Shown: positions 40,310 through 58,876 of the stretch, piece by piece
Numbering within the stretch: position 1 is the stretch's first letter
How the letters are laid out: every line of letters starts with the position of its first letter
Assembly: GCF_000299355.1 (NCBI RefSeq)
Contig: NC_018664.1
Span: 679,115 to 743,114, forward strand
Length of the DNA: 64,000 bases
From: Gottschalkia acidurici 9a
GTDB lineage: Bacteria > Bacillota > Clostridia > Tissierellales > Gottschalkiaceae
Direction: 5' to 3'
Notes under the pieces: generated by a model
What the model was told of the DNA's origin: nothing
The model's input: the letters and a program-made list of their open reading frames with translations, nothing else
Database searches by the model: none
Program-made: the position numbers and the translations under genes

Positions 40310-40338
40310 ATATGGTATATAATGATACTTTAAAAGGA

Positions 40339-41358: not shown

Positions 41359-41372
41359 TTAGGAGGAGTATT

Positions 41373-42020
41373 ATGGTTGATATACTAAATACGACAAAGT
41401 ATATTTTAGGAGGGTTAGGAGTAACTATATCATTATCCCTGGTAACTTTATTTTTATCTATACCCCTAGGTATGCTATCGGCTATAGGAAAGATATCATC
41501 TCCTTATATCATAAGAAAAATATTAAATTTCTACACGTGGATATTTAGAGGAACACCATTACTTTTACAAGTGCTGTTTGTATATTATGGACTTCCTATA
41601 ATACATCCATCATTGGCTATGAGTGAATTCCAGGCAGCATCATTAACATTTACATTAAATTATGCTGCATACCTTACAGAGGTATTTAGAGCTGGTATAG
41701 AATCTATAGACGATGGTCAATATGATGCAGCTAAGGCACTAGGGTTTAATTATAAGGAAACTATGAAATATATAATAATCCCTCAAACCATAAGAAGAGT
41801 AATACCTCCTACTTGTAATGAAGGTGTAAATCTTATAAAAGATACAGCACTAGTTGCAGTTATTGGAATGGGAGACTTATCTAGAGCAGCTAAAGAAGTA
41901 GTAAGTAGAGAATTTAATATTACCCCTTTTATTATAGCAGGGATAATATATCTTATAATGACATCTTTAATAATGTATGTATTTAGAAAGTTAGAGGACA
42001 GATATTCTATATATATGTAA
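41373..42020 (+). CDS. Amino-acid ABC transporter permease
   Basis: 215 residues with about five membrane helices; the EAA loop EVFRAGIESIDDGQYDAAKALGF is clear and marks the ATPase docking site. Polar amino-acid type (HisM/GlnP family). It pairs with the lipoprotein upstream. A typical operon adds an ATP-binding subunit, which is missing here; it may be supplied by another operon. AGGAGG precedes ATG. A terminator follows at 42034. Confidence 0.93.
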   Translation: MVDILNTTKYILGGLGVTISLSLVTLFLSIPLGMLSAIGKISSPYIIRKILNFYTWIFRGTPLLLQVLFVYYGLPIIHPSLAMSEFQAASLTFTLNYAAYLTEVFRAGIESIDDGQYDAAKALGFNYKETMKYIIIPQTIRRVIPPTCNEGVNLIKDTALVAVIGMGDLSRAAKEVVSREFNITPFIIAGIIYLIMTSLIMYVFRKLEDRYSIYM

Positions 42021-42033
42021 GGTAAAAGTTTAT

Positions 42034-42070
42034 AAAAAGCTATTAATATCATTGATATTAATAGCTTTTT
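42034..42070 (+). terminator. Terminator after amino-acid permease
   Basis: 17-bp perfect stem AAAAAGCTATTAATATC / GATATTAATAGCTTTTT with a 3-base loop, then more T. Confidence 0.9.
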
Positions 42071-42160
42071 TATTTTACTTTCATATGTTTTATTAATATA
42101 TGTTGAGAATAAGGTGAAAAATACTTTTTGTATAAAAAATTAAAAATTTAAATAAAAAAC

Positions 42161-42189
42161 TTGACGAAAAATGTCGAAAGGAGCATAAT
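42161..42189 (+). promoter_or_regulatory. Probable promoter of the antiporter gene
   Basis: TTGACG, 17-bp spacer, CATAAT, 31 bases before the antiporter ATG. Confidence 0.5.
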
Positions 42190-42219
42190 GTTTATGGAGT
42201 CATAAAGGAGGTAGAAAGT

Positions 42220-43458
42220 ATGGAAACATCAAGTATTGCATTAGCGGCAGACTATTTATTAGAGACAATAGCTATAATTTTAATTGCAGGAATGATATTT
42301 GGAAAGATTAGTGACTATATAAAAATTCCAGATGTTGTACTTTATATTCTTGCTGGTATAATTTTAGGACCGCATGCTTTAGGATGGATAAGTGTAGAAA
42401 AATATGAAATAACTAATCAACTGATACTTACATTTGGTGCGGCTTATATATTGTACGATGGAGGTAGAGAAATAAAGCTGAAAATATTAAATAAAGTAAA
42501 AGTATCAGTTATGTTATTGGCTACTCTAGGAGTTTTAATCTCCACATTTATAACTGGATACTTTGCTTCTAGGATATTTAACATAGATATTATGACAGCA
42601 CTACTATTAGGGTCAGTTATAGCATCCACAGATCCATCTGTATTAGTACCTTTATTTAAAAAGGTTAAAATAAATAACAAGCTTAAACAAACTATAATTT
42701 CAGAGTCTGCGTTTAATGATGCAGCAGGTGCGATAATTACATTTGCAATAATTGGAATCATTTCAGGAAAGTCATTCTCTGCTATAGGAAGTACATTAGA
42801 GCTTTTAAAAACTGCAGGTGGGGGTATTTTAGTAGGACTAGTGATAGGATATATATCTTCACTTTTAGTTGCGCATAAAGAATATGCTATTCTTAAAGAG
42901 TATCCTGCTGAATTATCAGTTGCAACAGTAATAATATCTTACATCCTTTCAAACAAGCTAGGCTTTAGTGGATTTATGTCAGTATTCATAGTAGGAATGA
43001 TATGCGGAAATAAAAAAGTATTTAAGTTTTATATGCAAGACGAGTACTTTACAACCCAGCATAGATTTAGAGAAGTTTTAACAATTATACTAAGAATGAT
43101 GATATTTATATTACTAGGAACGCATGTAGAGCTTGTAGCATTAGCTAAGTACTGGAAGGGTGCATTAGCAGTAGTATTAATACTTATGTTTGTAGCGAGA
43201 CCAATATCTGTATTAATATCAGTATCACTTGATAGGAAAGCAAAATGGAGCTTGAGAGAAATTATATATTTAATGTGGGTAAGAGAGACAGGGGTAATTC
43301 CTGCTGCTCTATCGGGAATGATAGTTACATTAGGAATTCCAAATGCTCAAATAATATCTTCAGTAACATTTGCCACTATACTAATAACACTGACAGTTCA
43401 AGCAAGTACCTCAGCAGCATTAGCAAGGTATCTTAAATTAGATGAAGACTATAAATAG
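42220..43458 (+). CDS. Monovalent cation:proton antiporter (CPA family)
   Basis: 412 residues and about 12 membrane helices. Cation-binding motifs include ASTDPSVLVPLF and ESAFNDAAGAI, as in NhaP/CPA1-like antiporters. It would exchange Na+ or K+ for H+ across the membrane. AAAGGAGG precedes ATG 42220. It lacks the C-terminal TrkA-type domain of KefB-like relatives and ends shortly after helix 12. Single gene followed by a terminator. Confidence 0.9.
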   Translation: METSSIALAADYLLETIAIILIAGMIFGKISDYIKIPDVVLYILAGIILGPHALGWISVEKYEITNQLILTFGAAYILYDGGREIKLKILNKVKVSVMLLATLGVLISTFITGYFASRIFNIDIMTALLLGSVIASTDPSVLVPLFKKVKINNKLKQTIISESAFNDAAGAIITFAIIGIISGKSFSAIGSTLELLKTAGGGILVGLVIGYISSLLVAHKEYAILKEYPAELSVATVIISYILSNKLGFSGFMSVFIVGMICGNKKVFKFYMQDEYFTTQHRFREVLTIILRMMIFILLGTHVELVALAKYWKGALAVVLILMFVARPISVLISVSLDRKAKWSLREIIYLMWVRETGVIPAALSGMIVTLGIPNAQIISSVTFATILITLTVQASTSAALARYLKLDEDYK

Positions 43459-43480
43459 AAATAGTTTTTAAATTAAAATT

Positions 43481-43527
43481 AACACTATAAAACTTATTGA
43501 ATATTATTAAGTTTTATAGTGTTTTTT
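43481..43527 (+). terminator. Terminator after the antiporter
   Basis: 16-base arms AACACTATAAAACTTA / TAAGTTTTATAGTGTT, then a T-run. Confidence 0.85.
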
Positions 43528-43553
43528 ATTTTAAAAAATTTTTATTTAAATTG

Positions 43554-43583
43554 TTGACATTTATGCTCGACTGATAATATAAT
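43554..43583 (+). promoter_or_regulatory. Strong promoter of the P-type ATPase
   Basis: TTGACA at 43554-43559, 18-bp spacer, TATAAT at 43578-43583. It is followed ten bases later by an operator palindrome. Confidence 0.8.
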
Positions 43584-43592
43584 AAGAGTGAA

Positions 43593-43614
43593 CATATGAA
43601 TAGGTATTCATATG
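43593..43614. promoter_or_regulatory. ArsR/SmtB-type operator
   Basis: Perfect 10-bp arms CATATGAATA / TATTCATATG around GG. The core TGAA-N6-TTCA is the usual pattern of ArsR/SmtB metal-sensing repressors. It lies between the -10 box and the ATPase start, where binding would block transcription. The repressor gene itself is not in the window. Confidence 0.7.
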
Positions 43615-43635
43615 AAAAGGATGGGAGGCGAAGAA

Positions 43636-45759
43636 ATGTCTAGTAAAGAAATTATATTACAAGGTCTGAACTGTGCTAGTTGTATCAGTAAGATAGAACA
43701 ACAGACAAGTAAGATAGAAGGTGTAGAGGAGTCTAAATTTAATTTTGCAAGTGAAATATTAACTGTAGACTATAGAGGAAAAAAGGAATTTAAAGAGGTA
43801 TTTAAGGAAATAAAAGATATAGTAAATAAAGCGGAACCTCATGTAAAAGTTAGAATGAAAGAAGAACAAGATGAACACAACCATGATCATGGTCACGATC
43901 ATTCTCATGACGGAGGAAGTGTTAAGAAAAATATTATAAGGTTTTCAATAGGGGGAATCTTATTATTAATATCATATATTTTTAATCTGGAATCTAATAT
44001 AAAAGCAGGACTAATTTTAACTAGTTATGTATTAATAGGCTATGATGTAGTATTAAGAGCTTTTAAAAATATATTAAGAGGTCAAATATTTGATGAACAT
44101 TTTTTAATGACTGTAGCTACATTTGGAGCAATAGCTATAAAGGAGTATCCTGAGGCAGTTGCGGTTATGTTATTTTATCAAGTAGGTGAAACATTCCAAG
44201 ATATAGCTGTTGGTAAATCAAGAAGATCTATAAAGTCACTGTTAGATATAAGACCAGATTATGCGAATCTAAAGGTAGGAGAAACAATATCTACAGTTAG
44301 TCCAGAAAAGGTTAATATAGGGGATACTATAATTGTAAAACCAGGTGAGAGGGTACCCCTAGATGGTAAGGTTATAGAAGGAAGTTCAATGGTTAATACT
44401 TCTGCACTTACTGGAGAATCTGTACCAAGAAGTGTTAACAAGGGTGACGAAATATTAAGTGGATTTATAAACGAAAATGGTATATTAACTATTGAGGTAA
44501 CTAAGAGTTTTGGAGAATCTACAGTATCTAAAATACTAGATTTAGTTCAAAATGCAAGTGGTAAAAAGGCACCTACTGAAAAATTCATAACTAAGTTTGC
44601 AAGATACTATACACCGGTGGTAGTTATATCTGCTATTCTTATAGCTTTTATACCTCCAATAATACTAGGTCAAGAGTTTTACACATGGGTATATAGAGCA
44701 TTAGTATTTTTAGTTATATCATGCCCTTGTGCATTAGTGGTATCTGTTCCTCTAGGATTCTTCGGTGGTATTGGGGCAGCTTCAAAATCTGGAATATTAG
44801 TAAAGGGTGGTAACTATTTAGAAGCATTAAATGATATTGAAATACTAGTAATGGATAAGACTGGTACTCTTACTAAGGGAATATTTGAAGTTACAAAGAT
44901 AGATGCTCAAGAAGGATTTAGTGAAGAAGAGATACTGAAGTTTTCAGCATTGGGTGAGATACACTCAAGTCATCCTATTGCTACTTCTATAAAGAAGGCT
45001 TATGGAAAAGAGTTAGATTATAACAAAATAGAAAATTATGAAGAAGTCGCTGGTCATGGAATAAAGGCTACAATAGAAGGTAAAGAAGTTTTAATTGGAA
45101 ATATTAAGCTTATGAATAGAGAAAACATAGATGCAGAGAAGTCAAATGATATAGGAACTATAGTATATGTAGCTATAGAAAATAAATATGCAGGAAGCAT
45201 ATTGATATCTGATGAGATAAAAGAAGATGCACATAAGACTATACAAAGTCTACACAATCTTGGTATAAAGAAAGCAGTAATGCTAACTGGAGATAATAAG
45301 AATATAGCTGAAAAAGTAGCTAAAGACTTGGGGATAGATGAAGTATATTCGGAACTACTTCCAATAGATAAAGTTAGTAAAGTAGAAGCATTAAATGCTA
45401 AAAAATCGGAAAAGGGTAAATTAGCATTTGTAGGGGATGGAATAAACGATGCACCAGTACTTGCTATGGCAGACATAGGTATTGCAATGGGTGGCTTAGG
45501 ATCAGATGCTGCTATAGAAGCTTCTGACATAGTTCTAATGACTGATGAAATATCTAAGATAAGCACATCTATAAAAATAGCAAGAAAAACTAAAAAAATA
45601 GTTATACAAAATATAGTGTTAGCACTAGGTACAAAATCTATAGTATTAGTACTAGGAGTCTTTGGTATAGCAAATATGTGGGTAGCAGTATTTGCAGATG
45701 TTGGAGTAGCATTAATAGCAATACTAAACTCTATGAGGGCATTAAAGATAGATAAATAA
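43636..45759 (+). CDS. Zn2+/Cd2+/Pb2+-exporting P1B-type ATPase
   Basis: 707 residues from ATG 43636, behind GGGAGG; the earlier ATG at 43612 lies within the operator. An N-terminal heavy-metal domain (GLNCASC, CxxC) is followed by a His-rich stretch (HNHDHGHDHSH) that may hold Zn. Then come the CPC ion channel (CPCALVVSVPLG), phosphorylation site DKTGTLTKG, HP motif (HSSHPIATS) and GDGINDAPVL hinge. The CPC motif and the His-rich arm favour Zn/Cd/Pb over Cu. The gene sits behind an ArsR-type operator and so is probably metal-induced. Confidence 0.93.
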   Translation: MSSKEIILQGLNCASCISKIEQQTSKIEGVEESKFNFASEILTVDYRGKKEFKEVFKEIKDIVNKAEPHVKVRMKEEQDEHNHDHGHDHSHDGGSVKKNIIRFSIGGILLLISYIFNLESNIKAGLILTSYVLIGYDVVLRAFKNILRGQIFDEHFLMTVATFGAIAIKEYPEAVAVMLFYQVGETFQDIAVGKSRRSIKSLLDIRPDYANLKVGETISTVSPEKVNIGDTIIVKPGERVPLDGKVIEGSSMVNTSALTGESVPRSVNKGDEILSGFINENGILTIEVTKSFGESTVSKILDLVQNASGKKAPTEKFITKFARYYTPVVVISAILIAFIPPIILGQEFYTWVYRALVFLVISCPCALVVSVPLGFFGGIGAASKSGILVKGGNYLEALNDIEILVMDKTGTLTKGIFEVTKIDAQEGFSEEEILKFSALGEIHSSHPIATSIKKAYGKELDYNKIENYEEVAGHGIKATIEGKEVLIGNIKLMNRENIDAEKSNDIGTIVYVAIENKYAGSILISDEIKEDAHKTIQSLHNLGIKKAVMLTGDNKNIAEKVAKDLGIDEVYSELLPIDKVSKVEALNAKKSEKGKLAFVGDGINDAPVLAMADIGIAMGGLGSDAAIEASDIVLMTDEISKISTSIKIARKTKKIVIQNIVLALGTKSIVLVLGVFGIANMWVAVFADVGVALIAILNSMRALKIDK

Positions 45760-45831
45760 AATGTATAAATAACATTAAAAAGCAATACCTTATAGTATGT
45801 AGATTTTACTATTATAAAGAAGGTGTTGCTT

Positions 45832-47238
45832 TTGAATTTTAAAAAGAGATTATTAGTTGGACTATCGATCTTAATAACAATCATTGCGGTAATTGGTCTT
45901 ATCACATTAACTAAAGAAGAAAAACTATTTAAAAACATAAATACATCTATTAATTCCAAAAATATAATGAATACCGTAGAAGAGTTAACATCTAAAAAAT
46001 ATAATGGAAGGCTTATAGGAACAGAAGGAAATCAATTAGCAACAGAGTATCTTGTAGATCATTTTAAAAAAATAAATCTTAAGAATCCTGAAAAGTTAAA
46101 AGACTATAAGCAATACTATAAGCAGAATGTTAGAGCTACCAATAGTGCACCAATATTAAGTGTACTAGATAAAAATGGGAAGATAGAGAAAGAATATAAT
46201 TATATAGAAGATTTCTCTGTAGTAACTTATAACTCATTATTAAGTATAAAAGGAAAAGCCTCAGGACAGGGGGTATTGATAGAGGATGTTGATAAATTAA
46301 GTAAAAGTCCAGAAACGTTTAGGGGAAAAATATTACTAGTATCTAGAGAAACAATGGGAAAATACGGACTTCGAAATATACTGCTAAACATTATAGAACA
46401 TAAGATAGAAATTAAAGGAATAATATTAGAGGTTGAAATTGAGAAAGAAGATAAAAGCGGATTTGCAGTAGCACCTAACGCACCAGCAGTAGATAATTTT
46501 AGTAAAAATGGACCAATGCTATTTACACTAGAGTCAGGAGCATTTAAGGAGATATCTAATCTTACAAAAGAAGGTAAGAATATATATATGACTGCAGATT
46601 ATAGCATTGAAAATGTAGAGGGAGCAAATGTAATAGGACTTCTGGAGGGAAATCATAAAGAGTTAAAAGAAGAATTTATAATAATAGGAGCTCATTTTGA
46701 TCATGTAGGTGATAATAAAAATGGAACATATAATCCTGGTGCACTAGATAATGCATCTGGAACGGCTACTATGATGGAGATAGCTAGAATTTTATCAGAG
46801 AATAAGATAAAACCTAAGAAGTCAATACTATTTATAGGATTTAATGGTGAAGAGGAAGGGCTTTATGGTTCATATAACTATGCAAATAATCCTTTGTATC
46901 CTCTTAATGATAAGACTGTAATGATAAATTTAGATATGGTAGGTTCTAAAAGAAAAGTTCCATTAGAATCTGTAAGCTATGATAGTAGTAATACTGAGTT
47001 AAGAGATGAATTGTTTAAAATATCTAAAGAATTAGGGATCGATAGTAGAACAAATGTAAGTCAGGGAAGTGATCATGTTCCGTTTGCAGCAAAAGGTATA
47101 AAATCAGTTTGTCTTATTCATATGGACTTAGAAAGTGGATATCATACACCACATGATACAATAGATAAAGTAGATAGAAAAAGAACAGAAGAAGCAGTTA
47201 AAGTAGTACTTTCTTACTTAGACAATAATGCATATTAG
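45832..47238 (+). CDS. M28-family zinc peptidase, membrane-anchored
   Basis: About 468 residues. The start is most likely TTG 45832, behind AAGGTG; the frame also has a GTG at 45823 inside that site. A signal anchor (LLVGLSILITIIAVIGLITL) places it outside. The M28 zinc ligands are present: AHFDHVG, GALDNASGTATMMEIA, FNGEEEGLYGS, NLDMVG and the last His in YHTPHDT. Residues 130-235 resemble a protease-associated insert. It may act as an aminopeptidase that trims peptides at the surface. Ends at a strong terminator. Confidence 0.9.
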   Translation: MNFKKRLLVGLSILITIIAVIGLITLTKEEKLFKNINTSINSKNIMNTVEELTSKKYNGRLIGTEGNQLATEYLVDHFKKINLKNPEKLKDYKQYYKQNVRATNSAPILSVLDKNGKIEKEYNYIEDFSVVTYNSLLSIKGKASGQGVLIEDVDKLSKSPETFRGKILLVSRETMGKYGLRNILLNIIEHKIEIKGIILEVEIEKEDKSGFAVAPNAPAVDNFSKNGPMLFTLESGAFKEISNLTKEGKNIYMTADYSIENVEGANVIGLLEGNHKELKEEFIIIGAHFDHVGDNKNGTYNPGALDNASGTATMMEIARILSENKIKPKKSILFIGFNGEEEGLYGSYNYANNPLYPLNDKTVMINLDMVGSKRKVPLESVSYDSSNTELRDELFKISKELGIDSRTNVSQGSDHVPFAAKGIKSVCLIHMDLESGYHTPHDTIDKVDRKRTEEAVKVVLSYLDNNAY

Positions 47239-47248
47239 TGAAGAATTA

Positions 47249-47297
47249 AAAAAGTCCTAAGTTCTAAATATCAGATATTTAGAACTTAGGACTTTTT
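47249..47297. terminator. Bidirectional terminator, M28 peptidase / hemerythrin
   Basis: Long perfect stem AAAAGTCCTAAGTTCTAAAT with its complement ending at 47297; T-runs in both directions. Confidence 0.9.
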
Positions 47298-47850
47298 AAC
47301 TATACTTACTTTCAAGTTCATTTACAAACTTAATATATTTGTTTTTTACTTCGATATGAGCACTATTCTCTTCAAATTCTTTGAATTGAATATCTAATTT
47401 GTCTAAAGTTTCTTTTTTTAGATTATTAGTAGCATATTTATATATCATATTGTCCTCTTTATTTATATGCTTAGTCAGTAGGTTAGCGTAACCAATAGCA
47501 TTTCCTATTATATCAACTATAGCTTCTTTATCGCCAGATTTATGCGAGTTTAATGCAACTTCTAAGTCCATAACTAAAGATCTACCAAAGTTATGTTCTA
47601 TAAGCATTCCTTGTATAGGACCTTCACCTATAGTCTCTTGTAACTCATTGTTCATATCTATGAACAACATATCTTCTTCCTTGCCATGATGATACTTATC
47701 AGCGTAGTTTCTGATGAAATCAATTACTTGGAAAAAATCATCATATGGAACTTCCATTCCATTAGTTAATTGAAAACATAACTTTCTTATTACTTTTATA
47801 ACCTTCTTTATATTATCGTGTTCACTTACTAAGATATCTATAGAGTTCAT
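47296..47850 (-). CDS. Hemerythrin-like metal-binding protein
   Basis: 184 residues from ATG 47850, behind AAGGGAAGTGA. The four-helix fold carries the iron ligands: SEHDNIKK (His), YHHGKEEDMLF (His and Glu), EHNFGRSL (His) and HINKEDNM (His and Glu/Asp). In anaerobes such proteins bind oxygen, NO or iron and may protect the cell. Stands alone, in the minus direction. Confidence 0.9.
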   Translation of the reverse strand: MNSIDILVSEHDNIKKVIKVIRKLCFQLTNGMEVPYDDFFQVIDFIRNYADKYHHGKEEDMLFIDMNNELQETIGEGPIQGMLIEHNFGRSLVMDLEVALNSHKSGDKEAIVDIIGNAIGYANLLTKHINKEDNMIYKYATNNLKKETLDKLDIQFKEFEENSAHIEVKNKYIKFVNELESKYS

Positions 47851-47977
47851 AAACAATCACTTCCCTTAAATTATTATAGTATATTTTATCCATTCACTAG
47901 AAATATAAACATTGCTTATATTGTTACTAAAGAGATTATAGCATGGATTCTATTATGAATAATGTGATTCAAAACAA

Positions 47978-48026
47978 AAAAGAGAAGTAAAGTTTTATAA
48001 TTTGAATACCTTACTTCTCTTTTAAA
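47978..48026 (-). terminator. Terminator of the zinc-ribbon gene
   Basis: Stem AAAAGAGAAGTAA / TTACTTCTCTTTT with a 22-base loop and T-run on the minus exit. Confidence 0.65.
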
Positions 48027-48087
48027 TTTATAGAGATAAATAGTTTGTTTAGTTTTAATAAATTATATAGTTTACAATATCATATTG

Positions 48088-48609
48088 TTATACCTGCCTC
48101 TTAAATACATTAGTAATACCATTGAAAATGACTACTAATGTATCGTCATCTTCAAAGTGAAACTTATGTACCATATCTAGGTCCTCTGGTATGGAATCAT
48201 CATTTACCATGGATATATATAATGTTAAAGTATTAGAATCCTCTATAGAGTATGTTCCGCTCATACTCCTACCTTCTTCAGTATAATTTAGTTCGAATTT
48301 TGTACTTTCAAACTTAATATAATCAAATACACCTTTATCATCCTCACATATCCAAGTACCTAAAATTTTCTGCACAGTATCTTCAGTTGATAATTGCATT
48401 GGTAATTGATGAGATATAAAACTATCGAAATCCGAATGTATTCTATAGATTATGACAAATAAGATTACAAAAGTTGTAATTAAAAATAAAAATGTCTTCA
48501 TTAGCTCTCTATTTCTTTTAGAGCTCTCCTCAGCATCTAGCCAATAACCACATCTTGAACAGAACTGGTAATGTTCCTTTACCTCAGAGCCACAACTATT
48601 GCAACGCAT
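48088..48609 (-). CDS. Zinc-ribbon membrane protein of unknown function
   Basis: 173 residues. The N-terminal ribbon MRCNSCGSEVKEHYQFCSRCG has two CxxC pairs. A short linker leads to a membrane helix (TFLFLITTFVILFVIIY). The remainder (residues 75-173) looks like a beta-rich lipocalin-like or DUF domain (KILGTWICEDDKGVFDYIKFE, LTLYISMVN), probably extracellular. ATG 48609 follows GGAGG. The arrangement is common in Firmicutes and its function is not established. Confidence 0.8.
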   Translation of the reverse strand: MRCNSCGSEVKEHYQFCSRCGYWLDAEESSKRNRELMKTFLFLITTFVILFVIIYRIHSDFDSFISHQLPMQLSTEDTVQKILGTWICEDDKGVFDYIKFESTKFELNYTEEGRSMSGTYSIEDSNTLTLYISMVNDDSIPEDLDMVHKFHFEDDDTLVVIFNGITNVFKRQV

Positions 48610-48864
48610 CTGACATACCTCCTTATATTAGTATATTCTGCATCTATTAGAAAAAACCTTTAAATAATGTCTGTATTAACATTTAATAAAGGTAAATTAT
48701 ATAGATTGAAAAATTAATTTTAACATGTAATTATAGCATGATTTTAATAATTACTCAATAATATGAAATTTATAAAAATTAAGTTCCAAAATGAATAGAA
48801 ATTAACAATAATAGACATAACTATAGAAAGATAATGAAACTTTATAATAAGGAGGTCTTACTAA

Positions 48865-51003
48865 ATGAGTGATAAAGATATAAAAAACTCTTTCGAGAAA
48901 AGTGCTGAAACAATGAGAGGTGATAATAAAACTCTTGGTTCACAATTAACAAAAGCAGACTATAATGATCCTGAGATACATGGGGATATACACAAAGATG
49001 TAAAAGTAGATTATAAAAGTATGGAGAAATCGCCATCAACTATGGAAGAGGTACATAGATGGCAGAGAGATCATATAAAAAAGGATGATCAGTCAAAAGA
49101 AGGATATCCATTAAATGTTATAATAGATCCTGCAATGAGAGAAATGTATCAAGTAGTACATAATGCAGGTATGACTAACGTTTTTGATAGATTTAGTCAA
49201 CAACAACCAATACAGTGTAAGTTTTGTGTAGAGGGATTATCATGTCAACTGTGTGCAAATGGACCTTGTAGAATAAGCCCTAAGTCACCAAGAGGAACTT
49301 GTGGAGTAGATGCTCACACTATGGTTTCAAGGAACTTTATGTACAGACACGTTACAATAGGTACATCTGCAAATATATTTCATGCGCATCAAGCAGCAAG
49401 AACTTTAAAAGCAGCAGGCCAAAGTCCCGAGAGCGGATTAAAAATAAGAGATCCTGAAAAACTAAAAAAGTTTTCAGATATGTTAGGGCTAGATGCAAAT
49501 AAGCCTATAAATGAATTAGCAGTTGAATTTGCTGATGTTGTAATGAATGACATCCACTCTCCATTCCATATAGAGTCTAGGCTAGTAGAAGCATTTGCAC
49601 CTACTAAGCGTAAAAATTTATGGAGAAAGCTAGGATTATTCCCTGGTGGGGGTTATAGTGAGGTTGCATATGCTCAAACTAGCTGTATGACTAACTTTAG
49701 ATCTGACCCTGTGGAGTTCCTACTTAATAGCGTTAGACTAGGAATAGCAAATGAGTATCAAGGAATATTTATTCTAGATATAGTTCAAGAAATGCTAATG
49801 GGAACTCAAAAAGTAGCTATGAAAAAACAAAACATGGGTCTACTAAAAGAGAATATGATAAACGTTATAACTAATGGCCATATGCCATTGCTTGCAAACG
49901 TAGCTATAGATTTAGCTTCTACAGATGAATGGCAACAAAAAGCTAAAGATTTAGGAGCTGATGGAATACAAATATTAGGTCATGTTTGTGAAGGTCAACA
50001 GCTTATAAACTATGATGGTACGCATAATCAAAAAGCATATGCAGGTCAAGAAGGAGAATGGCTATCTGAAGAGTATTTACTTGCAACTGGTGTAGTAGAC
50101 TTATTTATGTTTGACTATAACTGTACAGTTCCTACTCTTCCGCTATATGCTAAGAAATTCGGTACTAAATTATTAAGTACTCATCCTGTAATTAAATTAC
50201 AAGGAGTAGAGACATTAGACTTTGTACCAGAAAAAATGAAGGAACAAGCTGAAAAAGCATTAGAGAAAGCATTAGAAGGGTTTAAAGAGCGTAAAGCTTC
50301 AAACAGAGAAGTATATATACCGGAATATACTTCAGAATGTATGGTTGGATTTAGTACTGAATCTGTTAAAGAAGCATTAGGAGGAAGCTTTGATCCACTT
50401 ATAGAACAAATAGCAAATGGAAACATAAGAGGAATAGCAACTATAGTAGGGTGTACTACTGCTAGATATGGCCAAGGTGGTAGTAATATATTTAAAATAA
50501 CTAAAGGGCTAATAGAAAACAATATACTAGTTCTTTCAGGTGGATGTACTTCTTCAGTTATGCAATACACTGGACTTAGTCATCCAAATGCAGCAGATGA
50601 AGCAGGAGAAGGACTAAAAGCAGTTTGTAAATCACTTGGAATACCACCAGTACTAAACTACGGTGCTTGTGTAGATATAGGAAAAATGACTCAAACAGCT
50701 AAGGAACTAGCAGATATACTAGATGTAGATACTGATAAATTACCATTAGTAATAGGTGCTCCAGAATACTTAGAGCAAAAAGCAGTATCGGATGCTTGTA
50801 CAGCACTAGCACTAGGTTGGTTAGTTCATATAGCACCAGTACCTTCTATAACAGGTAGTGATCTAGTAGTTAAAACACTTACAGAAACTACAGAAACGCT
50901 GGGACTTGGTAAAGTAGTAGTAGAGTTAGATGCTGAGAAAACTATTCAAATATATGTAGATCACATAGAGAAAAAACGTAAGGAATTAGGACTTACGACT
51001 TAA
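48865..51003 (+). CDS. cooS: Anaerobic Ni-Fe carbon-monoxide dehydrogenase catalytic subunit, divergent form
   Basis: 712 residues, longer than the usual ~630 because of an N-terminal extension of about 80 residues. The B-cluster block CxFCxxGxxCxLCxxGPC is seen as CKFCVEGLSCQLCANGPC; the D-cluster is of the CxxC type. C-cluster ligands His (NGHMP), Cys (DYNC), Cys (VGCTT), Cys (SGGC) and Cys (GACVD) are present, but the usual CCTGNE block reads GHVCEGQQL. The catalytic Lys is in APEYLEQKAVS. It would interconvert CO and CO2. No cooF, cooC or acetyl-CoA synthase neighbours exist, so its partner is unknown. AAGGAGG precedes ATG. Confidence 0.85.
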   Translation: MSDKDIKNSFEKSAETMRGDNKTLGSQLTKADYNDPEIHGDIHKDVKVDYKSMEKSPSTMEEVHRWQRDHIKKDDQSKEGYPLNVIIDPAMREMYQVVHNAGMTNVFDRFSQQQPIQCKFCVEGLSCQLCANGPCRISPKSPRGTCGVDAHTMVSRNFMYRHVTIGTSANIFHAHQAARTLKAAGQSPESGLKIRDPEKLKKFSDMLGLDANKPINELAVEFADVVMNDIHSPFHIESRLVEAFAPTKRKNLWRKLGLFPGGGYSEVAYAQTSCMTNFRSDPVEFLLNSVRLGIANEYQGIFILDIVQEMLMGTQKVAMKKQNMGLLKENMINVITNGHMPLLANVAIDLASTDEWQQKAKDLGADGIQILGHVCEGQQLINYDGTHNQKAYAGQEGEWLSEEYLLATGVVDLFMFDYNCTVPTLPLYAKKFGTKLLSTHPVIKLQGVETLDFVPEKMKEQAEKALEKALEGFKERKASNREVYIPEYTSECMVGFSTESVKEALGGSFDPLIEQIANGNIRGIATIVGCTTARYGQGGSNIFKITKGLIENNILVLSGGCTSSVMQYTGLSHPNAADEAGEGLKAVCKSLGIPPVLNYGACVDIGKMTQTAKELADILDVDTDKLPLVIGAPEYLEQKAVSDACTALALGWLVHIAPVPSITGSDLVVKTLTETTETLGLGKVVVELDAEKTIQIYVDHIEKKRKELGLTT

Positions 51004-51019
51004 GTTAATACTTTAAATA

Positions 51020-51060
51020 AAAACTAGAGATTATGATAAAGGATAATCTCTAGTTTTTAT
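51020..51060 (+). terminator. Terminator after cooS
   Basis: AAACTAGAGATTAT / ATAATCTCTAGTTT stem and T-run. Confidence 0.85.
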
Positions 51061-51093
51061 TATTCGCTCTGTTAGAGAATTATGCGATTAATT

Positions 51094-51230
51094 GTGAAAA
51101 ATGGGTTCAACTATAATTCACTATATTTTATAGAAAGGATTTCTATATAATGATATTAGGACTTTCTATAAGACAATGTGCAGAAGAAGTTAGTGTAGGT
51201 GTTAAGACATCATTTTTTTATGTATTATAG
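51094..51230 (+). pseudogene. IS1595-family transposase N-terminal remnant
   Basis: In one frame: NCEKWVQL, stop, FTIFYRKDFYI, then MILGLSIRQCAEEVSVGVKTSFFYVL. The last block matches the helix-turn-helix start of IS1595-type transposases (LSIRxxAExxxxSxKTSFxWRHK). The DDE domain is absent. Only a fragment remains. Confidence 0.6.
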
Positions 51231-51430
51231 AATATTTCTTCAACTAAGGAAAAAGAATAAAAAAGCAGAAATAGATATATTGAGTTAGCTTAAAATTATG
51301 AAATTCTCAATATAACTGTTCTTTGTTAGTAAATCATCCAATAAGGTTTATAATGTAAGAAAGTTCGCAATTATCATATAGTGTGAAACAATCAACTGTA
51401 AATGAAAAAACAATAATATTCTTTGAAAAC
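51231..51430. other. Gap between IS remnant and inverted repeat
   Basis: No intact gene. A CTTTGAAAACTGAATAATA-like string starts the inverted repeat at 51421. I cannot say more. Confidence 0.4.
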
Positions 51431-52062
51431 TGAATAATACAGTGTTTAAAAGCTAGCATGTTTTTCATCTATCTATAAAATATATAGAAAATATGGTATA
51501 ATTTTAATGTTGGTTAAGTCGCAATAGTTAGATCTGATGGACTAATAAAAAGAGGTGCTAATAGATGTGGATATTAGGGAAAATATAAAATCATTAAAAA
51601 TTAACATACAAAACAATAAAATTATAAGCTCAATTGTTCTAATTCTTAATTTAATATATCCAGTTATTTTGATATTGAATATGAATAATATTGGTATAGA
51701 TAGCGATTTAAACTTCTATTCTTGTTTATGGGTAGGGTTTTATAGTTCTATTTTCTCAATTGTTTTTGTTAAGAAAGATATAGTTAGCACATCATTGATT
51801 ATAATTAATATGTTTATTGTTTCATTTACACTCATTATATCATTAATGGGTGGGATATTAGGCTTATTAAGTACAATTATTATGATGATTTTCCCATTCA
51901 CACCAGATAGATGGATTTCTGAATTAATAGATTTTTATTATCATAGACAATAAAAATCTAATTTTTCAAGGCGCATTTCTCGTGTTATTGTTAGTTCACA
52001 ATGTTATTATTAGACGTAATGATTACAAAATAAAATAATTACTTAAAACACCGTATTATTCA
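51431..52062. repeat. Inverted-repeat-flanked accessory segment
   Basis: TGAATAATACAGTGTT at 51431-51446 recurs inverted at 52047-52062 with one mismatch. A direct repeat AGTCGCAATA lies at 51517-51526 and 52087-52096. Between them is one membrane-protein gene and little else. It could be a non-autonomous mobile segment. Confidence 0.45.
51567..51953 (+). CDS. Unknown four-helix membrane protein
   Basis: About 128 residues from GTG 51567, or 132 from GTG 51555; AGAGGTG overlaps the upper choice, so the start is unsettled. Hydrophobic segments: IISSIVLILNLIYPVILIL, CLWVGFYSSIFSIVFV, SLIIINMFIVSFTLIISL and GGILGLLSTIIMMIF. It ends with FTPDRWISELIDFYYHRQ. Its codon use is T-richer than its neighbours. 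It lies inside an inverted-repeat pair and next to a transposase remnant, so acquisition is likely. No family recognised. Confidence 0.55.
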   Translation: MDIRENIKSLKINIQNNKIISSIVLILNLIYPVILILNMNNIGIDSDLNFYSCLWVGFYSSIFSIVFVKKDIVSTSLIIINMFIVSFTLIISLMGGILGLLSTIIMMIFPFTPDRWISELIDFYYHRQ

Positions 52063-52085
52063 AAATTGAATTTTACGGTGTTTTT
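52045..52085 (+). terminator. Terminator-like hairpin with AACACCGTA / TACGGTGTT
   Basis: 11-bp arms, AT loop and T-run, about 95 bases after the membrane-protein gene. Confidence 0.6.
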
Positions 52086-52122
52086 GAGTCGCAATACAAA
52101 TATATTACGAATTAAACATTAT

Positions 52123-52167
52123 AAAAATAGCTAGATATTCCATGTTCCAATAGTTCTAGCTATTTTT
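52123..52167. terminator. Bidirectional terminator for the NitT permease gene
   Basis: 13-bp arms AAAAATAGCTAGA / TCTAGCTATTTTT with T-runs on both exits. Confidence 0.75.
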
Positions 52168-52222
52168 ATTGCTTATTTATCACACAATTGTCTAACTGAG
52201 ACTTATCATTATATAATAAGCT

Positions 52223-53035
52223 TTATTGTCTCCACTTTATAAATTTCTTTTCTACTATAGCTATTCCTTTATACATAATAGCAGCAAGAACTGCTAATAT
52301 AATAACACTCATCATAACTAAGTCTAGCTTAAATACTTGACCGCCATAAACTATTAAATATCCTATACCGGCACGAGAAACTAAGAATTCACCAACTATA
52401 ACTCCAACCCAAGCAAGACCGATATTTACTTTTATAGTACTTATTATAGAAGGAACACTGGCAGGTAACACTAATTTTCTTAGTATTTGAAATTTAGTTG
52501 CTCCAAATGTTTCAAGCATTTTTATACTATTCTCATCCACTTCTTTAAAGCTAGTATATATATTCATGATCGTTATAACGATTGATAATGTAACAGCAGT
52601 TACTATAATACCTGCATAACCAGCACCTACCCATATTATAATAATAGGAGCTAATGCAGTTTTAGGTAAACTATTTAAAATTACTAAATAAGGATCAAGC
52701 ACAATAGCTAAGAAATCTGACCACCATAATATTATAGCTATTATAATCCCAAGAATAGTTCCAATTAAGAAACCTATTACAGTTTCCATAACGGATATAC
52801 CTATATGTTTAAACAAGGTACCATCGCTAAGGAACGATATAAATAGTTTATAGATTTCATAAGGGGAACTAGTAAGAAATGTGTCTACCCATTTTAATCT
52901 AGCAGCTAATTCCCATAAGGCTAAAAATACTACTAAGATTAAAATTTGAGTTAAAAAAATGGCTCTTTTTCTAGTCTTATAGTTCTTTAAGAATTTTTGT
53001 TGTTCCTTGCTAATTTCTTTATTCGACATGAACAT
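52223..53035 (-). CDS. ABC transporter permease, NitT/TauT family
   Basis: 270 residues and six predicted helices, with the EAA-like loop KMLETFGATKFQILRKLVLPASVP. The relatives SsuC, TauC and ThiX transport nitrate, sulfonate, taurine or pyrimidine precursors. It starts within the ATPase gene (about 17-base overlap), so the two are translated together. The substrate-binding protein is absent from the window. The gene ends before a bidirectional terminator. Confidence 0.9.
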   Translation of the reverse strand: MFMSNKEISKEQQKFLKNYKTRKRAIFLTQILILVVFLALWELAARLKWVDTFLTSSPYEIYKLFISFLSDGTLFKHIGISVMETVIGFLIGTILGIIIAIILWWSDFLAIVLDPYLVILNSLPKTALAPIIIIWVGAGYAGIIVTAVTLSIVITIMNIYTSFKEVDENSIKMLETFGATKFQILRKLVLPASVPSIISTIKVNIGLAWVGVIVGEFLVSRAGIGYLIVYGGQVFKLDLVMMSVIILAVLAAIMYKGIAIVEKKFIKWRQ

Positions 53036-53807
53036 CCAGCTCCTTCCATATTTTGTTGAAATAAAGTCTAAATTCAGGAGCTTCTCTACACTTAAGAGGA
53101 GTATTTACACCATTATTGCAAGTCAAGTCTATATCTATTATTTCTTTTATACTAGCAGGTCGCTTAGTTAATATAACTACTCTGTCACCCATAGAAATTG
53201 CTTCTGCAATATCATGAGTTATCATAAAAGCAGTTTTATTTTCATTCTTTAATATGGATGATATTTCATCAGCAATACCTAATCTAGTATGGTAGTCAAG
53301 TGCAGAAAAAGGTTCATCTAAAAGCAAAATATCAGGTTTTGTTGCTAGCGTTCTTATAAGAGCTACACGTTGCCTCATTCCACCAGATAATTGTCTAGGA
53401 TAGTGATGCTTAAATTCTGAAAGTCCATAAGTCTCTAGCAATTTTTCTGCAAAAGCTATATTTTCATCGGTTAATTTATTCTGTATTTCAAGACCGATAA
53501 GTACATTATCTAGTATAGTTCTCCACTCAAAAAGATAATCACGTTGGAACATATAGCCTATGTCTTTATTAGGTCCAGTAACTTTCTTGCCATTGACTAA
53601 AACGTTTCCACTAGTAGGTTTTAATAAACCTGCTATTATTGAGAATAAAGTGGATTTACCACATCCACTAGGTCCAACCATTGTGACAATTTCCCCACTA
53701 AAAATATCTAAAGAAATATTATTAATAGCCAAAGTTTCGCCATCTAAAGTATGATAAGTCATACCTATATTTTTGAGCTCAACAATTTTCTTACCTCCCA
53801 TATGCAT
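53019..53807 (-). CDS. ABC transporter ATP-binding protein, NitT/TauT family
   Basis: 262 residues. Walker A GPSGCGKST, Q-loop YMFQRDYLFEWRT, signature LSGGMRQR, Walker B ILLLDEPFSALD and switch His in MITHDIAEA. The Trp after the Q-loop is typical of TauB/SsuB. It powers the permease encoded downstream. ATG 53807 or the ATG two codons later are both plausible behind AAGGAG. A likely substrate is a sulfonate, nitrate or HMP-type precursor, but this is not fixed by the sequence. Confidence 0.93.
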   Translation of the reverse strand: MHMGGKKIVELKNIGMTYHTLDGETLAINNISLDIFSGEIVTMVGPSGCGKSTLFSIIAGLLKPTSGNVLVNGKKVTGPNKDIGYMFQRDYLFEWRTILDNVLIGLEIQNKLTDENIAFAEKLLETYGLSEFKHHYPRQLSGGMRQRVALIRTLATKPDILLLDEPFSALDYHTRLGIADEISSILKNENKTAFMITHDIAEAISMGDRVVILTKRPASIKEIIDIDLTCNNGVNTPLKCREAPEFRLYFNKIWKELDVHVE

Positions 53808-53986
53808 CTTCTCCTTTAAATAAAATTCGTATGATTATCATATTCAGAATGAGTAAATATGTGAACTATATACCGTAAAATAGTAATTAATCTAAATATT
53901 TTGTAACGAATATAAACAGCTTTTATATTATATATTAGGATATCTTTGTCACAAGATGTTTTATGAAATTAAAGGAGATGTTGTAA

Positions 53987-54502
53987 ATGGCAGAACCATC
54001 ATGTATAAGAGACAGTAATGGCGATAAGAGGTTAGGCTGGAAGGTTGAATTGACTTCACCAGCCCCTTCAGCTACTCAATCTAATACTTTTAGTTATAGA
54101 TTAACCAATATTGATGATACAAATGATTTAAATAGTGTAGAGATATGCCTGTGTTCTTCACTGAGTCTTCAAGAATTAAGAGATTTGCTAGAAGATTGTA
54201 GTGCTATTGTCACATATGACGATGGTAGTACAAGAGAAGCGCAATGTGATGTTCAAAGTTCACAAGATATTGTTGACTGTAGTGTAGGATTAAGAGTAAG
54301 GGGCATACCTGCAGCAGGACAAAGGGGCCAAACTCAAATTAATATAACAATGACTTTCACTGAACCTCTCCAAGTATCACCTGTTAGAGTTGGAATTAGA
54401 GGACGTGGTCAAGGTGCACCTAGAGAAGAATGGGAAGATATATGTGGACCTGGTTGTCCAGTAATACCGCCACCACCACCAAGTCGTAAGATAATGCTAT
54501 AA
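53987..54502 (+). CDS. Cys-containing protein of unknown function, possible spore surface
   Basis: 171 residues, no signal peptide or membrane helix. Several Cys (CIRD, CLCSS, CSAIV, CDV, CSV and a CGPGC near the end) and a PPPPPP track near residue 161-166. Middle region beta-rich (INITMTFTEPLQVSPVRV). It follows AAAGGAGATG. Together with the clostripain-like gene and the next Cys-rich gene it forms a same-strand cluster. Such composition fits a surface or exosporium component, but I cannot assign a family. Confidence 0.6.
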   Translation: MAEPSCIRDSNGDKRLGWKVELTSPAPSATQSNTFSYRLTNIDDTNDLNSVEICLCSSLSLQELRDLLEDCSAIVTYDDGSTREAQCDVQSSQDIVDCSVGLRVRGIPAAGQRGQTQINITMTFTEPLQVSPVRVGIRGRGQGAPREEWEDICGPGCPVIPPPPPSRKIML

Positions 54503-54510
54503 ATTAAAAT

Positions 54511-54540
54511 AATACTCCCACTTGTACGAGTGGGAGTATT
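54511..54540 (+). terminator. Hairpin after the Cys-rich gene
   Basis: 12-bp perfect arms AATACTCCCACT / AGTGGGAGTATT. The plus-strand T-run is poor, so it may work in the minus direction or only pause. Confidence 0.55.
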
Positions 54541-54770
54541 AAAACTTCTAGAAGGTATGCATTAGATTACAAATATAATTGTCATTTTTAATAATAATAG
54601 CTATATGAACTATAGAAATATATAAATATTAGCACTAACAAGAGTATTGTTTATAACGGATTCGACTGGGGTCAGAAAGTTGTATAGTTAATCTAAATAT
54701 AAAAAGAAAAGCGGATAAAAATAAAAAGCTTTATTTACTAAGAAAATATCTGAAAGAAAGTGATAATATC

Positions 54771-56071
54771 ATGAAAGAAGCATCTAATTCTATCAATAAT
54801 ATATTAAAGAAATTAAAAGACAAGAAAGAGTGGACAGTATTAGTCTATGGTAATGGAAACAATGAATTAGAGCCAGAAATTTATGAAGTATTTTCTAAAA
54901 TTAATGATGAAGTGGTAAATGAAAGTATTAGAGTCATTACCCAACTAGCCAGAGCACCACAAAGTCTGGTAAAGCTACTAAGACCTACTTTATTAAGAAG
55001 TAATCTAGATAGCTGGCATGGTGTGAAAAGGTATGAAACTACATTAGAAGGTACTACGATAGTAGAGGATTTAGGAAACAGAAATATGGCAGATCCTTAT
55101 ACTTTATATGAATTTATAACGTGGGGTATTACCAACTATCCATCTAATAATGTAATGCTTATATTATCAGGTCATGGTGCAGGATTTGCTGGTATGATGA
55201 CTGATTTAGCTAATGATCATCCATTTATAATGTCTATGAATGGTATATGTAGTGCTATTTACAATAGTAAGCAAAAGACTAATAAGAATATAGATTGCAT
55301 ACTGTTAGATGCATGCTATATGAATATGATAGAAATATGGTATGAACTTGCATTAATCTCCAATAGTCCTGTCGACTATATTTTAGTGCCATCTAAAAAT
55401 GTGCCAATTGAGGGATTACCATATCATTTAGTAATTAGATATCTACAAGAAGAATGTAACAATAAAAAGAAATATTAGAAATATTAACAAATACAACTCA
55501 AAGCTTTAACTTAGAAGATAAAAGCAATAAATTACTATTGGTGAATCTGAATAAAAGTAAATTTACCAGTCTAAAAGATTCTATAGATAGATTCTCCTAT
55601 GCGCATATATATAAGGACAAAAAACTCATAGAGAAGATAAGAGGAAGAATGTTAGAGCCTGCTGTGAATATTTTATATCTAGAGAAAATTTTCAATAAAG
55701 ATAATAATAAATATGAAATAAAAGAAGAATTTGAAAATATAATAGAGTCTAATGAAATATCTAAGTATACTCAAGAAATAGAGAACGGTCCAAGTGTTTA
55801 CCTACCTAAAAATAATATACAATATGATCCAGTAAAAAGTTATTATCGTAATATGAGATTTCTAGAAAACAATAGATGGCTAAATATAATAGAGAATGAG
55901 TATACAAAAGATTATTATGAAAATCTAGAGAGAGATAATTTTTACGACAAACTCCCTACACCTAGACCCATTCCCATAGTAAATGTTATATCTGTAATAC
56001 TAGAACAAAATCCAAATCTTAGTCAAAGTGAAGCATATGAAATTATACTTGAACTAGGATGGCGAACATAG
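54771..56071 (+). pseudogene. Clostripain-family (C11) cysteine peptidase, split by a one-base shift
   Basis: Two frames make one protein. The first (54771-55478) holds the C11 catalytic pair: His in LILSGHGAG and Cys in LLDACYMNM, and stops after CNNKKKY. Coding sequence resumes one frame over, as KEILEILTNTTQSFNLEDKSNKLLLVNLNKSKF, through to 56071. An extra A in the A-run 55464-55468 would join them. Total about 430 residues, near the family norm. No signal peptide is seen. It sits among Cys-rich small proteins that it might process. The break may be a sequence error or a recent mutation. Confidence 0.75.
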
Positions 56072-56073
56072 TA

Positions 56074-56110
56074 ACAATTTGAATTGTACAACCATATAAT
56101 ATAATGAATA
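56074..56110 (+). promoter_or_regulatory. Sigma-K-like promoter for the 133-aa gene
   Basis: AC near 56073-56074, 17 bases, CATATAATA at 56092-56100. This fits the sigma-K pattern closely. The gene starts 80 bases downstream. Confidence 0.4.
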
Positions 56111-56180
56111 GAATGAATTATATTCGCTAAAATCCTAGTAATTTATTTATATTGTATTATATAGAGGGAGAGGATTATAA

Positions 56181-56582
56181 ATGGCATATATGTTAAATTC
56201 AAAAGTTATATGTGATATACCAGGTTCTCTAGATTGTCAACAAATTGATACTGGTGAAATAGAAATAAGAAGTGTTAATGATATAGTAATCCATGGTAGA
56301 GTTGTAGACTGTCAAGGAGATGGAATAGAAGGTGCAGTAGTTAAAATATTCCGTAGACGTGATAATGGCACACTAAGAGCTATTGACCATACTTTCAGTG
56401 GTTGTGAAGGATTTTATATGATAAACATACCAAGGGATGGAAATGATCCAATAGTAGTTATGACTTCTGCTTCAACTTGTAATGCACCAGAACAATGCTC
56501 TGGGGAACAGTGTGACTTAGAATGTAACGGATCAGGTGAGGACAAAGGAAAATGTAGAAGTAGTAAAAGAGCATATAAATAG
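56181..56582 (+). CDS. Carboxypeptidase-regulatory-like (Ig-fold) protein with Cys-rich tail
   Basis: 133 residues. Residues 30-95 form a CarboxypepD_reg-like beta sandwich: IVIHGRVVDCQGDGIEGAVVKIFRR ... GCEGFYMINIPRDG. The C-terminal tail is Cys-rich (CNAPEQCSGEQCDLECNGSG). Such domains often occur in surface and spore-envelope proteins. The sigma-K-like promoter upstream supports, but does not prove, sporulation expression. GGGAGAGG precedes ATG. No membrane helix. Confidence 0.7.
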   Translation: MAYMLNSKVICDIPGSLDCQQIDTGEIEIRSVNDIVIHGRVVDCQGDGIEGAVVKIFRRRDNGTLRAIDHTFSGCEGFYMINIPRDGNDPIVVMTSASTCNAPEQCSGEQCDLECNGSGEDKGKCRSSKRAYK

Positions 56583-56589
56583 TTAGATA

Positions 56590-56628
56590 AAAAAGCTTTG
56601 TAGAAACTATATTACAAGGCTTTTTAAA
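56590..56628 (+). terminator. Terminator before truA
   Basis: AAAAAGCTTTGTA / TACAAGGCTTTTT stem with T-run. Confidence 0.7.
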
Positions 56629-56651
56629 ATAAAATTATAATAAAAAAAATA

Positions 56652-56680
56652 TTGACAAGAATAAATATGAATAATAGTAT
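56652..56680 (+). promoter_or_regulatory. Promoter of truA
   Basis: TTGACA at 56652-56657, 17-bp spacer, TAGTAT at 56675-56680. Confidence 0.65.
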
Positions 56681-56714
56681 TACTCACATAGAGTTACTTT
56701 TAGGAGGATTGTAA

Positions 56715-57470
56715 TTGAGAAATATAAAATTAACTATAAAATATGATGGATCTAGATACAAAGGATGGCAAAGGCAAGAAAATACTGATATGACAGTGCA
56801 GGAAAAAATAGAGAACGTACTTAAAAGAATTACAAACGAAAACATAGAAATAATAGGATCAGGAAGAACTGATGCAGGTGTTCATGCTATAGGACAAGTA
56901 GCAAATTTTAAAACTGAAAGTGATATGTCTTTAAAAGAGATTAAAAAGTATTTTAGTATATATCTACCTGATGACATAGTAATTGATAGAGTGGAAGAGG
57001 TAGAGGAAAGATTTCACTCAAGATATAATGCTATATCTAAAAAGTACTTATATAAAATATGGAATGGGGACAACTTAGACCCTTTTTCAAGAAAATATTC
57101 AGTTCATATAGAACAATCATTAAACTTAGAAAAGATGAGAAAAGGTGCTGGCTATTTAATAGGAGAACATGATTTCACAAGCTTTACGACAGATAAGTCT
57201 AAGAAGAAATCTAAAGTAAGAACCATATACTCTATAGATATAACTAAAAATGATAAATCAGTGGAAATCTTGTTTCATGGAAATGGATTTTTATATAACA
57301 TGGTAAGAATAATAGTAGCAACACTCATAGATGTGGGACTAGAGAAGTCAAAGCCTGAGAATGTATTAAAAATATTAGAAGGAAAAAATAGAGCATTAGC
57401 AGGAGATACAGCCGTAGCAAAAGGATTATATCTACTGGAAGTAGAATATAAAAATTCTAAAAATGAATAA
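56715..57470 (+). CDS. truA: tRNA pseudouridine(38-40) synthase TruA
   Basis: 251 residues, typical length. Converts uridines 38-40 of the tRNA anticodon arm to pseudouridine. The catalytic Asp lies in SGRTDAGVHA near residue 52. Other family blocks: KYDGSRYKGWQRQ at the N-terminus, HSRYNAISKKYLYKI and FLYNMVRIIV. TTG 56715 lies behind TAGGAGG. In other Firmicutes truA is in the ribosomal-protein region; here it is between surface-protein genes and a glutamate-synthase-like gene. Confidence 0.96.
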   Translation: MRNIKLTIKYDGSRYKGWQRQENTDMTVQEKIENVLKRITNENIEIIGSGRTDAGVHAIGQVANFKTESDMSLKEIKKYFSIYLPDDIVIDRVEEVEERFHSRYNAISKKYLYKIWNGDNLDPFSRKYSVHIEQSLNLEKMRKGAGYLIGEHDFTSFTTDKSKKKSKVRTIYSIDITKNDKSVEILFHGNGFLYNMVRIIVATLIDVGLEKSKPENVLKILEGKNRALAGDTAVAKGLYLLEVEYKNSKNE

Positions 57471-57527
57471 TTAACACAATATAGACAAACACTAAGTTTA
57501 CTTACTATACTTAAATGAGGTGTTAAT

Positions 57528-58862: not shown

Positions 58863-58876
58863 TTATGAATCACAAA

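Follow-up and report, generated by a model that had tools for sequence, protein, structure and literature searches.

A protein built like CO dehydrogenase that may well not act on CO, from a catalogued yet uncharacterised group in spore-forming anaerobes

Introduction

The nearest solved relative of the protein described here is CooS-V of Carboxydothermus hydrogenoformans, a CO dehydrogenase (CODH) homologue of structural group D-1. CooS-V carries a hybrid cluster and has no CO activity, according to the portion of Jeoung 2022 (PMC9311411) drawn on here; in the same portion, Glu494 of HCP and Glu556 of CooS-V are cluster ligands, Asn337 precedes the corresponding ligand in CooS-V, and the Glu at the Cys295 position of CooS-V is called probably prerequisite for the hybrid cluster. 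Clade D CODHs are described as 64% solitary and as having no clear role so far in the accessible part of PMC13056359, and the published view of the clade, as far as the available texts go, is that it is stress- or redox-related. The motif set of group D-2 appears as a structural group, restricted to bacteria, in Table 2 of Inoue 2019 (PMC6344411, available portion). The words 'spore' and 'sporulation' are absent from the main texts of PMC6344411, PMC13056359, PMC9311411 and PMC13240472, and a search of open main texts pairing CODH with spores gave nothing on clade D in spores among the matches listed.

Here we analyse a CODH-like gene within a 64,000-nucleotide stretch of Gottschalkia acidurici 9a DNA (the window, to which all coordinates refer). 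We argue that it belongs to D-2, a group catalogued yet uncharacterised and found in spore-forming anaerobes, and that its product, built like a CO dehydrogenase, may well not act on CO.

A CODH-fold gene with a long N-terminus

The open reading frame at 48865–51003 (+ strand) is real and encodes a CODH-fold protein of 712 aa: it starts with ATG, and an AGGAGG ribosome-binding site (48850–48855, + strand) lies nine bases 5′ of the start. The product scores 662.8 bits with the NCBI CODH naming model TIGR01702 (cut-off 478), which makes it likely that genes of this kind are annotated as CO dehydrogenase and taken as a sign of CO oxidation; with the HCP model TIGR01703 the score is 32.7 bits, below the threshold of 360.8. 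CooS-V is the closest solved structure by sequence (7b7q; 441 bits, ~36% identity) and also the top PDB fold match of the AF2 model (7b9a; TM 0.89 by target length). The model has a pTM of 0.84 and a mean pLDDT of 79; pLDDT is below 50 at residues 376–378 and 532–538, around the active site, and the model is too weak there to decide the active-site geometry.

Directly 3′ of the stop codon lies a hairpin (51016–51061, + strand; z −6.58) that is a likely terminator; a consensus terminator scan returned no terminator-like site. Since the next listed upstream ORF is on the opposite strand, the gene is probably monocistronic.

Solved CooS-type CODHs align only from query residue 85–94 on, which bears out the long N-terminus reported in a preliminary description of this locus. 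The extension of ~85 residues (48865–49119, + strand) is present in the first three relatives aligned (85–87% identity). Its second half is strongly conserved, with W66, Q67, R68, H70, Q76, G80, P82 and N84 invariant in a 35-sequence alignment, and a Pfam search of residues 1–87 gave no match.

Cluster ligands and acid-base residues

An alignment taking in CooS-V, CODH-IV, the D. vulgaris CODH, HCP-like proteins and relatives places all six C-cluster ligands in standard positions. On the + strand these are H339 (His261 of CODH-II; 49879–49881), C375 (Cys295 of CODH-II), C420 (Cys333), C530 (Cys446; 50452–50454), C561 (Cys476; 50545–50547) and C602 (Cys526; 50668–50670). The preliminary description had taken the GHVCEGQQL block (49978–50004, + strand), which does stand in place of the usual CCTGNE, for a sign of an altered C-cluster, and had named six standard ligands within a known clade as the observation that would overturn it. 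The alignment and the D-2 motif set give just this: the ligand Cys is retained as C375, followed by the invariant E376, and the sole loss is the preceding, non-ligating Cys. At ligand level, then, the idea of an altered cluster is not supported.

Other positions do differ from those of canonical enzymes. Asn170 (49372–49374, + strand), invariant in the 35-sequence alignment, replaces the acid-base His93, a feature of active Ni,Fe-CODHs that the window protein lacks. The ligand C420 is preceded by Asn419 (50119–50124, + strand), as in CooS-V, and the E637-Q-K639 motif (50773–50781, + strand) has its Glu at the position of HCP Glu494 and CooS-V Glu556, two residues ahead of K639, the equivalent of Lys563. 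The D-cluster is of the CxxC type, as observed earlier (C118xxC121, reading CKFC, type III; 49216–49227, + strand), and is followed by the B-cluster cysteines C127, C130, C135 and C146 (49243–49302, + strand). In its type III D-cluster, its ligand string (H C C C C C) and its acid-base residues, Asn and Lys, the protein matches D-2; judged by sequence, it is a member of this published structural group.

We compared 19 sites across the 75 of 80 relative loci that have an ORF of >600 aa (L113, L117, L119, L120 and L121 were dropped). Seventy-four of the 75 are identical to the window protein at every site and one has Leu for Val at 374; Asn-Cys, the EQK Glu and the Asn in place of the acid-base His each occur in 75/75. 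Asn-Cys and EQK are also found in CooS-V, in 14/14 D-1-type relatives and in 3/3 HCP-like proteins, whereas eight canonical CODHs read QC and (S/H)EK at these positions. CooS-V and the 14 D-1-type relatives have Glu for Cys295 and Tyr for Asn170, and the HCP-like sequences show an alignment gap where the Cys295 block stands. Asn-Cys and Glu are no proof of a nickel-free cluster: both are shared, along with the six ligands, by all six clade-C-type relatives (L021–L026), whose acid-base residues are Tyr and Gln, and a CODH of clade C reportedly oxidises CO slowly. D-2 is therefore distinguished by the whole combination, above all Asn170, E-Q-K and CxxC, and not by the Glu alone. The chief objections to a plain hybrid cluster are the retention of Cys295 and the comparison with clade C.

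Relatives, carrier genomes and nickel-related genes

A scan of genome contigs found 82 relatives, of which 80 were kept; as exact peptide seeds were required, the scan is biased to close relatives. All 80 are Bacillota by record titles, and in a sample of the phylum 16 of 398 genomes carry D-2. The 34 relatives in the 35-sequence alignment are 67–87% identical to the window protein, with invariant active-site residues. Among the 80 loci the ORF is shorter in L069 and cut by the contig end in L113; L120 and L121 have short ORFs only and L117 and L119 none. The only match in one genome, G187, consists of fragments at a single place.

In a midpoint-rooted phylogenetic tree, the placement that had been proposed as a check, the D-2 relatives form their own branch with 100/100 support, which joins the C/E/F side and not CooS-V, at a support of only 85/84. 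The suggestion of a divergent clade that may have a different role is supported in part, by this branch, by the Asn for His in 75/75 relatives, by genomes in which no other CODH or CooC was found and by the forespore-type elements described below.

In the window's genome (98% complete) the D-2 gene is the sole CODH, and there are two HCP-like genes. The genome gave no match to the PF03598 (ACS) profile and none to one CooC query at E 1e-10, and the other ORFs of at least 35 aa at 40000–60000 hold no ferredoxin-like Cys motif, in line with the earlier remark that acetyl-CoA synthase, nickel-insertion and ferredoxin genes are missing nearby. Among 38 carrier genomes, picked mostly for isolate-type titles, 13 have D-2 as their sole CODH (cut-off for other CODHs, E 1e-30). 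With G000 and G002 added, 15/15 such lone-D-2 genomes gave no match to the single CooC query, which matched in 5/5 control genomes with other CODHs. CooC is dispensable for some CODHs. No NiFe hydrogenase was found in 9/15 lone-D-2 genomes; it is also absent from one control genome in which CooC is present (G151).

SASP genes occur in 40/40 D-2 carriers tested (the 38 plus G000 and G002) and spoIIR in 32/32 tested. In a sample of Sporomusa ovata's class SASP genes were found in 42 of 250 genomes; nine of the 38 carriers are listed in this sample, and each of the nine belongs to the 42 with SASP. A spoIVA profile was dropped as evidence for a link with spores: being present in 340 of 398 phylum genomes, all 16 D-2 carriers included, it is too common for its co-occurrence with D-2 to add much.

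Forespore-type elements upstream of D-2 genes

Upstream of the window gene lies a weak candidate forespore promoter, GAATA-N18-CATAACTA (48793–48823, + strand; GAATA at 48793–48797). Taken singly this match is not significant: its empirical p values are 0.20 and 0.27, against 0.04 and 0.06 upstream of the closest relative, L030, and the trained matrix introduced below ranks it at the 72nd percentile. When 78 non-redundant upstream regions across the family (window included) were scored against their shuffles with B. subtilis sigma F and G consensus sequences, sigma F reached z 9.6 and sigma G z 7.9; sigma E was in slight excess (z 2.3), and sigma A, K, B and H were near the shuffled level (z 0.1 to 0.9). 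An apparent enrichment of sigma E and K over 639 neighbour upstreams was rejected because those controls include coding upstreams, and the test was redone with per-sequence shuffles and with 363 intergenic controls. Against the latter the D-2 set (n=79, with the window left out and L030 added) gave p 8.8e-12 for sigma F, 2.7e-15 for sigma G and 0.98 for sigma A. For sigma F and G respectively, the positive controls gave 6.8e-5 and 0.022 (SASP, n=24) and 0.011 and 0.067 (spoIIR, n=30), D-1-type relatives gave 2.4e-5 and 7.2e-7 (n=13), and other CODHs were not enriched (0.66 and 0.11, n=13). L011 was left out, its upstream being too short.

A D-2 matrix was built by starting from the sigma F consensus and training on 52 sequences; the median distance of its best site from the ATG is 66 bases in the 5′ direction (quartiles 62–72). 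In a cross-lineage test 10 of 26 sequences of other lineages exceeded the 95th percentile of the 639 controls (p 1.4e-4). With this matrix only 1/24 SASP and 2/30 spoIIR genes scored above the 95th percentile of the controls. A strict D-2 pattern matched 16/79 D-2 upstreams, 6/363 controls, 0/24 SASP and 1/30 spoIIR genes; the D-2 −10 element is thus not identical to that of known forespore genes. The textbook sigma G site G[ACT]AT[AT]-N16-19-CATNNTA occurs in 6/13 D-1-type upstreams (three of them identical), as against 2/78 for D-2, 0/13 for other CODHs and 3/363 for controls. Sites of this kind, such as GTATT-N17-CATACTA, lie upstream of the D-1 (CooS-V type) genes L010, L013 and L016–L019. 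In the accessible part of PMC3789822, C. difficile sigma F and G promoters are described as similar to the B. subtilis ones, and the sigma G promoters retain an A downstream of the −10 element; the D-2 matrix also has an A there. C. difficile cooS CD0174 is given as sigma B-controlled in the source text available. Overall, the control regions of the relatives hint at production inside the developing spore, perhaps in a protective capacity.

Neighbouring genes

In Thermohalobacter (L036/L043) the genes flanking D-2 encode, as judged by eye, HCP, RIC, an FNR-type regulator, a hemerythrin-like protein and an FAD oxidoreductase. Of 79 neighbourhoods (the window plus 78 loci, some shortened by contig ends), 24 have a homologue of one of these or of Mn-catalase within 3.6 kb: FNR in 11, hemerythrin in 7, FAD oxidoreductase in 7, Mn-catalase in 3, HCP in 2 and RIC in 2, counts that carry no genome-wide background. 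The remaining 55 neighbourhoods, again some of them shortened, have none of these stress genes, consistent with clade D being 64% solitary, and neighbour clustering found no partner conserved family-wide (largest cluster, 11 loci). Some D-2 genes are placed near such oxidoreductases in the available portion of Inoue 2019 (PMC6344411). Geosporobacter ferrireducens has two D-2 copies (L048 and L049), the second of which adjoins HCP- and RIC-like genes.

In the window itself a hemerythrin-family protein (PF01814; 47296–47856) is encoded ~1 kb from the CODH-like gene and is counted among the seven. NitT/TauT-like ABC genes at 52223–53807 (identified by eye), which recall an association of clade B in the available part of Inoue 2019 (PMC6344411), were considered as a D-2 trait and discarded: permease homologues occur in 1/79 neighbourhoods, the window's own, and the 11/79 found with the ATPase query were taken as generic ABC matches. 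Elsewhere the window holds, at 17357–27900, a Cas cluster (cas6, cas8, cas7, cas5, cas3, cas4 and cas1-like, by eye) and after it a CRISPR array with 34 repeat copies ~66–69 bases apart; a clostripain-family (PF03415) gene, possibly split in two, with only the first ORF matching the family (54771–56071); and a 1420-aa fused CoA-enzyme activase (BcrAD_BadFG + DUF2229; 5819–10081).

Discussion

Our preferred reading, offered tentatively and falling somewhat short of probable, is that the D-2 protein is a nickel-free oxidoreductase expressed in the forespore and protecting the spore; its cluster, substrate and expression are what we infer. In a homodimer, electrons would travel from the bridging D-cluster by way of the B-cluster to the active-site cluster. 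This may be of the Fe/S or Fe/S/O kind and free of nickel, with H339, C375, C420, C530, C561, C602 and perhaps E637 holding it in place; it would reduce a small oxidant of nitrogen or oxygen and would not handle CO. The gene would be expressed alone from a forespore sigma G/F promoter. The product could protect the developing or germinating spore, the role thought to belong to the Mn-catalase, rubrerythrin and SodA that the C. difficile sigma G regulon includes (PMC3789822, accessible part), and the N-terminus may serve in targeting or in contact with a partner. Pointing this way are the Asn-Cys and EQK motifs, common to D-2, CooS-V, D-1-type and HCP-like proteins and not found in the eight canonical CODHs; the hybrid cluster and lack of CO activity of CooS-V, nearest in both sequence and fold; the contrast between lone-D-2 and control genomes in CooC, together with the nine genomes in which NiFe hydrogenase was not found; the enrichment of sigma F and G but not sigma A elements, which other CODHs do not share; the cross-lineage test; SASP genes in every carrier tested against 42/250 in the Sporomusa class sample; and the Thermohalobacter flanks with the stress genes near 24/79 loci. 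The same reading has to contend with the Cys295 kept where CooS-V has Glu, the clade-C-type relatives, the insignificant promoter match of the window, the rarity of textbook sigma G sites in D-2 and of D-2 matrix hits among SASP and spoIIR genes, the 55 neighbourhoods without stress genes, the uninformative spoIVA association, a CooC test of one query, and G151, which has CooC and also lacks NiFe hydrogenase.

Several of these observations suit other explanations. A vegetative reductase of nitrosative or oxidative stress, or a redox sensor, under FNR/HcpR-type control would agree with the published view of clade D (as far as the texts available go), with CRP/FNR-like genes in 11/79 neighbourhoods, HCP and RIC in two, and with the hemerythrin-family gene near the window gene, the spore-former distribution then reflecting lineage only; the enrichment of forespore rather than sigma A elements and the SASP genes in 40/40 carriers count against it, and we consider it rather unlikely. 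Less likely again, and in our view improbable, is a true Ni,Fe-CODH whose six ligands build a normal C-cluster and which oxidises CO, perhaps at a slow rate like that reported for a single clade C enzyme in the source available. The conserved ligands and Lys563, the TIGR01702 score and the clade-C-type enzymes with their Asn-Cys and Glu speak for it, against which stand the Asn for the acid-base His in all 75 relatives, the CooC not found in any lone-D-2 genome and the ACS absent from the window's genome. That the gene is a functionless, decaying CODH remnant can hardly be credited: the fragmented match in G187 and L117 and L119–L121, without full-length ORF, are what would be expected of decay, but strong conservation among the 34 aligned relatives, with invariant active-site residues, already argues against it.

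Extending the preferred reading, a nickel-free forespore oxidoreductase, to clade D at large would make the 'CODHs' of endospore formers, D-2 and D-1-type too, forespore and not CO enzymes, and would give D-2 a cluster of its own kind that combines the full Ni,Fe-CODH ligands with the hybrid-cluster Glu and lacks the acid-base His; we regard this joint claim as possible and rather doubtful. A spore role, if correct, would account for genes that stand alone in genomes with no other CODH, and it is directly testable. D-2 would likewise put to the test which residues determine whether a Ni,Fe C-cluster or a hybrid cluster forms.

Among known systems, the D-2 group of Inoue 2019 is like the window protein in its type III D-cluster, its H C C C C C ligand string and its Asn and Lys; in the available portion of that text (PMC6344411) neither an N-terminal extension nor spores are mentioned for D-2, and the HCP Glu is named for D-1. 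CooS-V (group D-1; 7B7Q) shares the CODH fold, the CxxC D-cluster, the EQK Glu and Asn-Cys, and differs in having Glu295 and Tyr where the window protein has Cys375 and Asn170, and in having no N-terminal extension. The clade C CODHs (L021–L026) have the six ligands, Asn-Cys and the Glu at the HCP position in common with it, but carry Tyr and Gln at the acid-base positions and CG, not CxxC, in the D-cluster region. HCP shares the Glu494-type Glu, Asn-Cys and the common cluster cysteines, although the window protein lies far below the TIGR01703 cut-off. Canonical Ni,Fe-CODHs of clades E and F have the same fold and six C-cluster ligands, and are set apart by their acid-base His, CCT, QC and (S/H)EK.
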